The position numbers and the translations under genes are program-made. The notes beneath the pieces are model-generated. The model worked only from the letters and a program-made list of their open reading frames with translations, made no database searches and was not told where the DNA came from. DNA of 64,000 nt from assembly GCF_020614395.1 (NCBI RefSeq), contig NZ_CP085324.1, forward strand, positions 2,051,564 to 2,115,563. The letters are read 5' to 3'. The first letter of the stretch is position 1; each line of letters starts with the position of its first letter. This document shows, piece after piece, positions 8,026 through 43,125 of this stretch. The DNA is from Salarchaeum japonicum (GTDB lineage: Archaea > Halobacteriota > Halobacteria > Halobacteriales > Halobacteriaceae).

Positions 8026-8041
8026 CCCACCTTTTTACTGT

Positions 8042-8066
8042 GAGGGGGTCGCAAGGCGACCCCCTC
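8042..8066 (+). terminator. Hairpin terminator after the 6793 gene
   Basis: An 11-bp perfect stem (GAGGGGGTCGC with its complement) and a 3-nt loop begin 17 nt after the stop codon, just past a TTTTT run. In Archaea the T-run itself is the usual termination signal, so both parts may contribute. Confidence 0.5.
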
Positions 8067-8188
8067 CAGCAAAAACCTGGAGGGAAAAGCCGGTCGCCGG
8101 AGGCGACCGGTGAATCGCGCCGCGCGCGGCGCGAATGCGTCCCCATTGCCACAACCGTGCCGCCACAGCGACCGCTCCACCGCCTCGC

Positions 8189-8203
8189 GCGAACGTTCAA
8201 ATA
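8189..8203 (+). promoter_or_regulatory. Promoter block of dispersed element A
   Basis: GCGAACGTTCAAATA reads as a BRE followed by the TATA-type box TTCAAATA. Transcription should begin near 8226-8228, at the start of the conserved stem-loop region. The same block is repeated in copies B and C. Confidence 0.5.
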
Positions 8204-8225
8204 GGAGGGCGCGGCCAGCGGTCGG

Positions 8226-8305
8226 TATGTCCTGACGAGTCGCCGCGCGGGGTCGGGTTCGGAGGCGGTGACGATCCCCGCGCGGTCGTAGTGTCACCCG
8301 AAAGC
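8226..8305 (+). ncRNA. Candidate structured small RNA, element A
   Basis: The predicted transcript starts about 26 nt after the TATA-like box with TGTCCTGA. A perfect 10-bp stem follows (8243-8252 with 8276-8285) closing a 23-nt loop. It then runs through TGTCACCCGAAAGCC. Copy B keeps the flanking boxes (TGTTCTGA and TGTCGCCCGAACGCC) while changing the stem sequence and preserving pairing. That pattern supports RNA structure. It matches no RNA family I know. Confidence 0.35.
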
Positions 8306-8400
8306 CATTCTTGCCGGTGTCGGTGACGAACGGGGGGAGACACCACGCAAACTCGCCGGTGTCCGTCGCTATTAGGCGGTCGCGGCCGTCCCGATACCTA

Positions 8401-28810: not shown

Positions 28811-30130
28811 ATGTCACGAGAAGACACAGCGATAGTAGCGAAGCGCGTAGACGAGTCTCCGGCGGACACCGGAGAGATCAGGGCGCTCGCGCGGTCGGCG
28901 GGCTACGCCGTCGCCGGCGAGGTCGTCCAGCAGCGCGCCCCGCATCCCGGTCACGAGTTCGGGACGGGCGCGATTGCGGAGCTGCGGCGCGACGTCCGGG
29001 CGGCCGACGCGGACGCCGTCGTGGTTGACAACGACCTCGACGCGAACCGGGCGTTCGCGCTCGCCGACCGCCTCCCCGCCGACACGGGCGTCCGCGACCG
29101 GAAGCGCCTCGTCATCGACATCTTCGGCGAGCGCGCGGAGACCCGGCGCGCCCAACTGGAGGTGCGGCTGGCCGAACTAGAGTACGAACTCCCGCGGGCC
29201 GAGGAGCGCGCGAAGCGCGGCGAGGACGTGGGACGCCGGGGGTTCAAGAGCTCCGGCGAGTCCCCGGCCTCGCAGGTTCGCGCGGCGTACAAGCGCGAAA
29301 TCAAGCAGGTCGAGGACGCGCTCGCGGACATCGAGACCGCGGACGCGACGCGGCGCGCAGACCGGCACGCGGCGGGGTTCGACCTGGTCGCGCTCGCCGG
29401 GTACACGAACGCCGGGAAGTCCACGCTCCTGCGGCGGCTCGCGGACGACCACGCGGTCGGGGAGAACGACCGCCGGCACGCCGACCTCGCGGAGGTCGCG
29501 GCGTCCCACGACGGCCTGTTCACGACGCTGAACACGACGACGCGCCGGGCGACCGTCGGCGACCACCGGTTGCTGGTGACGGACACGGTCGGGTTCGTCT
29601 CCGGGCTCCCGCACTGGCTCGTGGATTCCTTCGAGTCGACGCTCGCGTCCGCGTACCGTGCGGACGCGGTGCTGTTGGTCGCGGACGCCACCGACCCGCC
29701 GGCGCGCCTCCGTGAGAAGGTGGCGACGAGCCGGGACGTGCTCGCCGACCACCGGGACGCGGACGACGGCGTCGTCCCCGTTCTGAACAAGGTCGACGCG
29801 GCAGACCGGCTCGACGAGAAGCGGCGGGTCGTCCGCGAGGTCGTCGGCGACCCCGTGTGCGTGAGCGCGCTTGACGGTGACGGACTGGAGGCGCTCGGCG
29901 ACCGTTTGGCCGCGGCGCTCCCGGAGCGCGAGACGGCGCGGTTCTCGCTCCCGCAGTCGGACGACGCGATGTCGTTCGTCTCCTGGCTCTACGACCACGC
30001 GAACGCGGTCGAGGTCACGCACGGCGAGACGGTGGAAATCGAAGTCTCGGGGCGACCCGAGGTCGTGGCGCTCGCTCGCGGCCGCGCGAGTGACGCTGGG
30101 GCTGACACGGCGGCGCGTCGAGATTCGTAG
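28811..30130 (+). CDS. hflX: GTPase HflX
   Basis: The 439-residue ribosome-associated GTPase has an N-terminal HflX domain including the glycine-rich 'RRGFKSSGESPASQVRAAYKRE' region (about residues 140-160) and a helical linker. The G domain has P-loop 'GYTNAGKSTLL' near residue 197, 'TTTRRATV' switch region, 'DTVGFVSGLPHWLV' and 'NKVDA'. HflX splits or rescues stalled ribosomes in bacteria. The 170 bp before it contain nothing else I can identify. Its 3' end overlaps the antisense 3' part of dispersed element C. Confidence 0.93.
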   Translation: MSREDTAIVAKRVDESPADTGEIRALARSAGYAVAGEVVQQRAPHPGHEFGTGAIAELRRDVRAADADAVVVDNDLDANRAFALADRLPADTGVRDRKRLVIDIFGERAETRRAQLEVRLAELEYELPRAEERAKRGEDVGRRGFKSSGESPASQVRAAYKREIKQVEDALADIETADATRRADRHAAGFDLVALAGYTNAGKSTLLRRLADDHAVGENDRRHADLAEVAASHDGLFTTLNTTTRRATVGDHRLLVTDTVGFVSGLPHWLVDSFESTLASAYRADAVLLVADATDPPARLREKVATSRDVLADHRDADDGVVPVLNKVDAADRLDEKRRVVREVVGDPVCVSALDGDGLEALGDRLAAALPERETARFSLPQSDDAMSFVSWLYDHANAVEVTHGETVEIEVSGRPEVVALARGRASDAGADTAARRDS

Positions 30131-30184
30131 CGGGCGCGCCGCCGGGTTTCGCGCTCCACGCTACGGCTCGTCTCAGAGCACGCC
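30102..30184 (-). ncRNA. Candidate structured small RNA, element C
   Basis: The predicted minus-strand transcript starts about 26 nt after the TATTTGAA (TTCAAATA) box at 30205-30212. It contains TGCTCTGA and a stem GTAGCG/CGCTAC with an inner GC-rich stem, then TGTCAGCCCC. The last third is antisense to the hflX 3' end. The match to copies A and B is weaker beyond the promoter block. Confidence 0.25.
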
Positions 30185-30204: not shown

Positions 30205-30221
30205 TATTTGAAGGTTCGCGC
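30205..30221 (-). promoter_or_regulatory. Promoter block of dispersed element C
   Basis: On the minus strand GCGCGAACCTTCAAATA matches copy A at all but one base and has the same spacing to GGCCAGCG. Confidence 0.45.
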
Positions 30222-41789: not shown

Positions 41790-41944
41790 CCCACCTTTTT
41801 CTTCGTCGGGTTCGCCGAAGGCGAACCACTCCTCGAAAAATCTGGACCAAAAACTCTCGCTCGCTCCGCGAGCGAGTAGGCTGCGAACGCGTTACCGCAC
41901 TGCTTCAACACCGCACCCGAACCAGTTCCGAACCGCGACCAGGT

Positions 41945-41957
41945 GAACGTTCAAGTA
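41945..41957 (+). promoter_or_regulatory. Promoter block of dispersed element B
   Basis: GAACGTTCAAGTA corresponds to copy A with one change in the TATA box (TTCAAGTA). Predicted transcription start is near 41979-41981. Confidence 0.45.
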
Positions 41958-41978
41958 GGAGAGCGCGGCCAGCGCGCG

Positions 41979-42056
41979 GTATGTTCTGAGTGGTGGCGCA
42001 CGGGAGCGGATTCGGTGAGCGGCGACGAATCCCGTGCGCGCGGTGTGTCGCCCGAA
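41979..42056 (+). ncRNA. Candidate structured small RNA, element B
   Basis: The predicted transcript opens with ATGTTCTGA. It forms a perfect 10-bp stem at 41996-42005/42030-42039, with an alternative inner GGATTCG/CGAATCC pairing. It closes with TGTCGCCCGAACGCC. Stem bases differ from copy A while complementarity is kept, which suggests selection for RNA folding. Confidence 0.35.
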
Positions 42057-42060
42057 CGCC

Positions 42061-42984
42061 CTATGCGACGCGGTTGACGAACTCCTCGTCCGCGTTCGCG
42101 TGGAGGACGTTCTGTCGGACGAGGTCGGCGATGTGCTCGTAGTAGTCGCGCTCGGCGGCGGCGGCGTGCGGCGTGACGAGCACGTCCTCGTAGTCCCAGA
42201 GCGGCGAGTCCGAGTCGAGGGGTTCGTCCTCGAACACGTCCAGCGCCGCGCCCGCGAGTTCCCCGGCGTCGAGCGCGTCCACGAGCGCGTCCTCCTGTAC
42301 GACCTCGCCGCGCGCGACGTTCACGAGGTAGGCGTCGTCGCGCATCGCGGCGAACTCGTCGGGCCCGAACAGGCCCTCGGTGTCGTCGGTGAGCGGACAC
42401 GCGAGCGCGACGAACCGCGCGTCCGCGATGGCGTCGTGGAGGTCTTGCGGGCCGTACACCGCCCGCGTGTGCGGCGTCTTCACGGGCGTGCGGCGGACGC
42501 CGGTGACGCGCATCCCGACGCCGTCGGCGCGCCGCGCGATACCCTGGCCGAGCGCGCCGAGTCCGACGACGGTGAGGCGTTCGTCGAACAGCGTGAACGG
42601 CTCGTCCCAGTCGGGTCGAGTCCACTCCCGTTCGTGCTGGGCGTCCCGGAACGTGTGGAGGCGGCGCGCGAGCGCGAGCATCTGCCCGACCGCGTACTCG
42701 CCGACGGACGCGCCGTGAATCCCGGAGCTGTTCGTGAACGCGACGCCGGCGTCCGCGAAGTCGTCCAGCGGAAAGCGGTCGTAGCCGGCCTGAATCGAGT
42801 GCACCCACTCGACGCTGTCGAGGAAGGCGTCGCGGTGGAGGAACGTCACGACCGCGTCCACGCTATCGAGGTCGTCGCCGACGATGGACACGTCGGGGTC
42901 GACGGATTCGAGCGCGTCCCGCAGGCGTTCCGGCGGGAAGACGATGGAGACGGAGTCGTGGATACCGAGGTGGTCGATGTTCAT
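42061..42984 (-). CDS. ddh: D-2-hydroxyacid dehydrogenase
   Basis: The 307-residue NAD(P)-dependent enzyme interconverts 2-keto acids and D-2-hydroxyacids. Nucleotide-binding motif 'VVGLGALGQGIARRADGVG' is central. The catalytic set is Arg in 'VNVARGEVV', Glu in 'DVFEDEPL' and His in 'VTPHAAA'. The start at 42984 was chosen over an upstream in-frame codon because family sequence begins 'MNIDHLGIHDSV'. Substrate range is not predictable. Confidence 0.88.
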   Translation of the reverse strand: MNIDHLGIHDSVSIVFPPERLRDALESVDPDVSIVGDDLDSVDAVVTFLHRDAFLDSVEWVHSIQAGYDRFPLDDFADAGVAFTNSSGIHGASVGEYAVGQMLALARRLHTFRDAQHEREWTRPDWDEPFTLFDERLTVVGLGALGQGIARRADGVGMRVTGVRRTPVKTPHTRAVYGPQDLHDAIADARFVALACPLTDDTEGLFGPDEFAAMRDDAYLVNVARGEVVQEDALVDALDAGELAGAALDVFEDEPLDSDSPLWDYEDVLVTPHAAAAERDYYEHIADLVRQNVLHANADEEFVNRVA

Positions 42985-43125
42985 GCGAGTAGCTACCGAA
43001 GGCGGGCGATTGAACGTTGTGGAACGGGCGACTCGGGAAGAAGTCCTCGTCACAAGGGGCTCGGTGGGGGTAACACCTCGTCACTGTCGCCCACTCGCGG
43101 TTGGGCGTCCCCGAGTATAGGCGTT

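Follow-up and report, generated by a model that had tools for sequence, protein, structure and literature searches.

A multi-copy family of putative pseudoknot RNAs with a start-X-stop frame at the predicted 5′ end in haloarchaea

The frameshift site of the IBV coronavirus and the UAG readthrough site of murine leukaemia virus both carry recoding pseudoknots. The repeated haloarchaeal units described here share with such viral elements an H-type pseudoknot whose stem lies 6–8 nt past the decoding-site codon; as in IBV the first stem is long (10–11 bp), and as in murine leukaemia virus a stop codon precedes the knot. Unlike the viral sites, however, the open reading frame of the units consists of two sense codons at the extreme 5′ end, and the RNA would be free-standing. 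The geometry of a recoding element (an H-type pseudoknot 5–9 nt past the codon) is thus met, with a spacer of 6–7 nt, a first stem (S1) of 10 bp and a second helix (S2) that covaries, but the downstream ORF expected of such an element is not: across 166 copies the frames are equally open, and many copies run into a convergent gene. Minimal ORFs that act on the ribosome, and not by way of a protein, are found in lambda bar, in the axe-txe minigene (PMC8708949) and in the plant NIP5;1 AUG-stop (PMC11915504), and the two-codon frame of the units resembles them. Minigenes and AUG-stops nevertheless lie within longer mRNAs, whereas the ORF of the units opens what would be a free-standing pseudoknot RNA, present in many copies per genome.

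Among archaea, two sets of RNAs invite comparison. Small RNAs of Haloferax volcanii show ribosome occupancy without detectable protein (PMC12482152), and the units are alike in being small haloarchaeal RNAs with a proposed link to the ribosome and no expected protein product; neither start-X-stop nor pseudoknot features are described in the relevant sections of that paper. Halobacterium salinarum possesses 10 omega-RNAs that contain a pseudoknot (PMC12558985), and these TnpB-type RNAs resemble the units in being multi-copy, structured and knotted. Unlike them, the units examined lack tnpB or transposon ends, have their own promoters and sit in a conserved gene order. No known system that we compared combines all the features of the units. 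Two kinds of guide RNA were also considered and rejected. An H/ACA guide RNA is ruled out because the end motif, YGNNNGCC, is not accompanied by an ANA box, and the S1-flanking segments, where a guide pocket would lie, change between orthologues in sister species. A box C/D guide RNA is ruled out because the 5′ CTGA varies to GTAA or GTAG, as a stop codon would, and because a C box and a conserved 3′ CTGA are both lacking.

The window analysed is a 64,000-nucleotide stretch of the Salarchaeum japonicum genome (contig NZ_CP085324.1, positions 2,051,564 to 2,115,563). An original prediction, made from the sequence alone, had proposed three copies of a promoter-plus-stem-loop unit as a possible new small RNA family. 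All three copies were found where predicted, with limits now refined to 8191–8306 on the plus strand (copy A), 30217–30098 on the minus strand (copy B) and 41945–42061 on the plus strand (copy C). The boxes GAAC(G/C)TTCAA(A/G)TA, GGCCAGCG and the CTGA box were confirmed with their fixed spacing, and the proposed starts at 8227, 30182 and 41980 held to within 1 nt. The claim that a 3′ motif was confined to copies A and B failed, as copy C has it too (TGTCGCCCGAACGCC). The perfect 10-bp stem claimed for A and B held only in part: the hairpin is perfect in A and C, but in B it comprises 9 bp with one bulged U, and the perfect 10-bp helix of copy B is instead the second, pseudoknot helix, which had been overlooked. 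Absence of covariation in a larger set of copies had been set beforehand as a possible refutation; covariation is present, and the refutation failed. The reading as a transcribed structured RNA is supported comparatively as far as structure goes, whilst transcription remains an inference without expression data. The suggestion of a new family thus stands, and the family is much larger than three copies; the pseudoknot, the start-X-stop frame at +1, the roughly 24 copies in the host and the haloarchaea-wide spread were all absent from the prediction. Genome counts, model searches and permutation tests exclude chance similarity.

Each unit begins with a BRE/TATA promoter, identified from the sequence and a genome-wide pattern: GAACGTTCAAATA in copy A (8191–8203, plus strand), GAACCTTCAAATA in copy B (30205–30217, minus strand) and GAACGTTCAAGTA in copy C (41945–41957, plus strand). 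The string GAACNTTCAARTA has eight matches in the host genome against none for its reversed control. With up to three mismatches allowed, the pattern TTCAARTA-N9-GGCCAGCGNNCGGTAT has 17 matches in the host and 14 in the sister species (the sole other species of the host genus in the comparison), against zero in both for the reversed control. In copy A the GGCCAGCG box, common to 17 host sites, occupies 8213–8220 on the plus strand, between the TATA box and +1 and so upstream of the RNA. As an observation in its own right, the promoter core of this genus, TATA-GGCCAGCG-GGTATG, is conserved to an unusual degree past the TATA box. The same promoter set drives, in part, leaderless protein genes of the host genome (L012, L031, L039, L041 and L044), so that possession of this promoter is not sufficient to identify the RNA. 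Since the ATG of these leaderless genes occupies the position of the ATG or GTG of the units, +1 is predicted at 8227, 30181 and 41981.

At the predicted +1 lies a mini-ORF of two codons and a stop, with the stop at +7 as in the rest of the family: ATG-TCC-TGA in copy A (8227–8235, plus strand), GTG-CTC-TGA in copy B (30173–30181, minus strand) and ATG-TTC-TGA in copy C (41981–41989, plus strand). A stop codon is found at +7 in 163 of 166 non-redundant copies, with TGA in 144, TAA in 14 and TAG in 5; TGG is never seen, and the remaining three copies have another codon. One of these three reads ATG-TAG, its leader being one codon shorter with the spacing from stop to stem unchanged. The first codon is GTG in 133 copies, ATG in 27, ATC in four and GTC in two, whilst the second is variable, with at least 20 different codons. 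A guanine at the third position of the stop occurs only with adenine at the second (Fisher p=1.3e-5), which points to the grammar of stop codons and not to a simple sequence motif. The models used to collect copies contain a TGA consensus, which inflates TGA, but this would not favour TAA and TAG over TGG. It is very likely that the stop codon is under translational selection. Beyond the stop and within the RNA, the three frames are open in 141, 140 and 139 of the 166 copies (about 119 when shuffled); coding readings in other frames were rejected, as there is no frame bias.

A hand line-up of the non-coding copies revealed a constant plan, running from RTG (rarely ATC or GTC) at +1 to the end motif. 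The start codon, one further codon and the stop at +7 to +9 are followed by a spacer of 6–7 nt, the 5′ strand of the 10-bp S1 from +16 or +17, a loop of about 18–26 nt, the 3′ strand of S1 and a short linker; next comes a tail strand that can pair with the 3′ part of the loop, and finally YGNNNGCC. The helix between loop and tail, S2, is mostly of 6–10 bp, and S1 and S2 together form an H-type pseudoknot. In copy A (plus strand) the strands of S1 are CCGCGCGGGG (8243–8252) and CCCCGCGCGG (8276–8285), those of S2 are GGTGACG in the apical loop (8267–8273) and TGTCACC in the tail (8292–8298), all four resting on the pairing and covariation tests below, and the end motif is CGAAAGCC (8299–8306), although the true 3′ end of the RNA is unknown. 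In copy B (minus strand) S1 pairs CGTAGCGTGG, with its bulged U (30156–30165), with CCCGCTACG (30126–30134), S2 is a perfect 10-bp duplex of CGGCGGCGCG (30135–30144) and CGCGCCGCCG (30108–30117), and the end motif is TGTCAGCCCC (30098–30107). In copy C (plus strand) S1 is formed by GCGCACGGGA (41996–42005) and TCCCGTGCGC (42030–42039) and S2 by GGCGACG (42021–42027) and TGTCGCC (42046–42052); the last base of the end motif CGAACGCCC (42053–42061) lies inside the stop codon of a convergent gene (42061–43053, minus strand). Further examples of S2 are CATCGCTCG/TGAGCGATG, GGCGGAACG/CGTTCCGCC and GGCGACGCCG/CGGCGTCGCC. S1, the spacer and the linker are diverse among copies, and the 3′ terminus usually has no T-run.

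Both helices are supported by covariation. In an alignment-free control, S1 scored 24.8 for cognate halves against 14.2 for chimeras in which the 3′ halves were exchanged. Amongst 53 copies from other families, all ten S1 pairs show two-sided changes and 97% of S1 cells are paired, compared with 68% after shuffling, albeit in an alignment fitted to the stem. For S2, the pairing of loops with their own tails exceeds that with permuted tails (z=14, 106 non-redundant copies); this register is the best one in an alignment blind to S2, and sliding it collapses the covariation. Excess complementarity was confined to loop and tail, with none in the other segment pairs tested. The spacing from stop to S1 is 6–7 nt in 91 of 106 copies. 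Within S1, G:U pairs outnumber A:C combinations by 53 to 11, and the functional RNA is therefore the strand read from the promoter; the bias is weaker in S2 (23 to 13). Minimum-energy folds of single copies often miss this fold because it is a pseudoknot. A closing helix of 5′ CTGAC with 3′ GTCAG, to which copies B and D pointed, has no family-wide support and was discarded.

Two covariance models were used to follow the family. Plain MAFFT misregisters the stems, so the seed of the first model (R1, 14 copies, structure restricted to the first stem) was padded and trimmed by hand; the second (R2) was built from 82 unmodified copies from other genera, and alignments A4–A7 likewise contain unmodified sequence. 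In the host genome R1 has 35 matches. About 24 of these are non-coding units, more than one for every two of the 43 tRNA genes, and across the taxonomic family 25 of the 26 genomes yield matches. R2 has matches in 81 of 146 genomes of the order, and none outside the haloarchaeal order in a search of 197 genomes of the phylum. Run on the window with default filters, R2 lists copies A and B and omits copy C, despite the 75.3 bits that C scores in the genome search, and all copy counts are thus lower bounds. The highest count is at least 46, in Halospeciosus flavus; Salinibaculum litoreum has at least 11 copies and Halorussus aquaticus at least five, and other named carriers are Halobacterium, Halorussus and Halobaculum. 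The promoter combined with GTGACCTGA was also sought as a pattern in 84,980 genomes and found at 22 loci, where the full model (E<=1e-3) confirmed 13 of 13 haloarchaeal loci and none of the nine others, one of which reached 22 bits (E 0.008). Pattern matches in viral contigs contained the RNA in 0 of 10 cases, BLAST against plasmids gave only chance matches, and pNRC200 has no copy. We consider it very likely that the units form a structured RNA family.

The family has no entry in Rfam 15 and, as judged from open-access literature, is undescribed to date. At the gathering score Rfam 15 finds two tRNAs in the window and nothing else, and for 15 unit loci no match up to E=5 falls over any unit; the permissive matches are one tRNA and two unrelated sub-threshold hits, both in L182 and away from the unit. 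No description of the family was found in the open-access literature searched. A separate observation concerns its gaps: the family is nearly or wholly missing from one genus of the same taxonomic family as the host (g6, genomes G022–G024) and from families f8, f10, f12, f13 and f15. Lineages without it have close relatives with many copies, and such absences might indicate a partner protein.

The genes upstream of the three window copies encode, as named from sequence motifs, an ATP-grasp protein, an archaemetzincin-like protein and an EngB-type GTPase. Of the 15 family genomes with this ATP-grasp gene, 14 have unit A immediately 3′ of it on the same strand, a synteny spanning three genera (g1, g4 and g5); in 10 of 26 genomes the EngB-type GTPase gene precedes unit C. 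At syntenic positions the sequences of stem and pseudoknot have been replaced whilst the architecture is kept (for instance between copy A and L126, L149 and L163). This marks the units as old loci passed on by vertical inheritance, as opposed to a mobile repeat.

The multi-copy family, both helices, the strand, the start-X-stop frame, the spacing, the spread and the synteny are shown by these data; transcription, ribosome engagement and any regulatory outcome are inferred, with no transcript or ribosome data. In the mechanism that we propose, each unit would be a free-standing gene, with its own TATA promoter, whose product is a non-coding RNA some 80 nt long, and the 5′ end of this RNA would be taken by an initiating ribosome as a leaderless message. 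Most messages in these organisms are leaderless, and an RNA with RTG at its 5′ end would, by inference, be offered to the ribosome. A distance of 15–16 nt approximates the span between the first nucleotide in the P site and the mRNA entrance of the ribosome. As the leader is 15–16 nt long, a start codon in the P site would place the base of the stem at this entrance, and the stop at codon 3 would end translation before the pseudoknot had to be melted or opened far. The RNA would then engage ribosomes as a non-coding decoy or regulator, without protein synthesis. That ribosome engagement is part of the function is the side to which we lean, though on inference and without ribosome data; that the RNA acts as a decoy or regulates ribosomes is an inferred possibility and no more. 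Taken as one statement, from the family through to ribosome engagement, the case could as readily fail as hold. A bolder reading, which can only be called possible, is a new class of non-coding RNA that occupies ribosomes by mimicry of leaderless mRNA, with its start codon in the P site, a stop next but one and a pseudoknot at the mRNA entrance; its numerous copies in each genome, under different controls, would serve to tune or pause haloarchaeal translation. Against ribosome capture, the start codons are mostly GTG with six ATC or GTC, which are weaker than the ATG expected for strong capture. No partner of the RNA has been identified, and the ribosome is a partner by inference only.

The main rival to this scheme, which remains possible, is that the early stop is only a firewall: the RNA would be an ordinary structured trans-acting sRNA or protein ligand, its promoters derived from those of leaderless genes, with RTG at +1, and the stop would bar stray ribosomes, whose binding has no function, from the structure. 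In its favour the identical promoter serves leaderless protein genes, and the diversity of S1, spacer and linker fits separate regulators; its best argument is the dominance of GTG together with ATC and GTC, as if strong initiation were not needed. Losing the RTG, however, would exclude ribosomes more simply, yet 160 of 166 non-redundant copies retain it, and the copy with the leader shortened by one codon preserves the distance from stop to stem. A purely translational function, in which synthesis of the dipeptide is itself the point, for example through sequestration of tRNA by peptidyl-tRNA drop-off, could appeal to the two-codon ORF and to bacterial two-codon minigenes that regulate (PMC8708949). 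We regard it as very unlikely, since 20 or more different second codons mean that no single tRNA is targeted and the covarying pseudoknot is left unexplained.

An element acting in cis at a gene boundary on the convergent or upstream neighbour, as a transcription barrier, a terminator or an antisense to a 3′ UTR, would account for the 42 of 168 copies that end at or near a convergent stop codon in a rough test of ORFs (11 of them sharing one offset) and for the conserved gene order around copies A and C. It is nonetheless unlikely: contexts are mixed, with a co-directional gene downstream in 39 of 168, and a boundary at the level of DNA needs neither the start-X-stop frame nor an RNA-strand bias. 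A guide RNA of a mobile element (of the TnpB omega-RNA type), or another transposon-borne RNA, is suggested by the fact that the units too are multi-copy pseudoknot RNAs, of which Halobacterium salinarum has 10 of the omega type (PMC12558985). This was already disfavoured and is very unlikely, given that none of the three window copies has TnpB as its upstream gene (the neighbours of other copies were not all identified), that the units have their own promoters and a gene order conserved across genera, and that there is no copy on pNRC200 or in the 10 viral contigs. Chance similarity gains some credit from a GC-rich genome, in which hairpins and open frames come cheaply, but it is all but excluded by the reversed-pattern controls, with zero matches in host and sister genomes, by the permutation and chimera controls, by the stop-codon grammar and by the taxon specificity.

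If the family is real, haloarchaea including Halobacterium, Halorussus and Halobaculum hold up to dozens of undescribed pseudoknot RNAs, which can be annotated immediately by covariance model. A selected start-X-stop frame, if true, would provide direct evidence from evolution for the action of leaderless initiation on non-coding RNAs, and ribosome engagement by the units offers a testable model for the many haloarchaeal sRNAs found on ribosomes without a protein product (PMC12482152).

Several minor observations concern the flanks of the units. The motif CCCACCTTTTT lies directly after the stop codon of the upstream gene at 8026–8036 (plus strand), 30314–30304 (minus strand) and 41790–41800 (plus strand), and nowhere else in the window; CCCACCTTTT occurs within 300 nt upstream at 6 of 24 host unit loci and not in 92 kb around 30 tRNA genes. 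The CCCACCTTTTT motif is possibly a terminator that insulates the promoter of the unit. Between it and the promoter run strings of GC-rich hairpins (8040–8140, plus; 30303–30230, minus; 41800–41880, plus) with common pieces, namely GGAGGGAAAAA, GGTCGCC..GGCGACC and GAATCGCG..CGCGAATGC, which are also present at other host units and constitute a second repeated intergenic element. Downstream of a unit in genus g23 (family f17; unit loci L173, L175, L176, L178 and L181) lies the same co-directional gene, about 430 codons in length, with a common GAGTAAGGTTCAAA stretch between the two, which suggests another conserved location.
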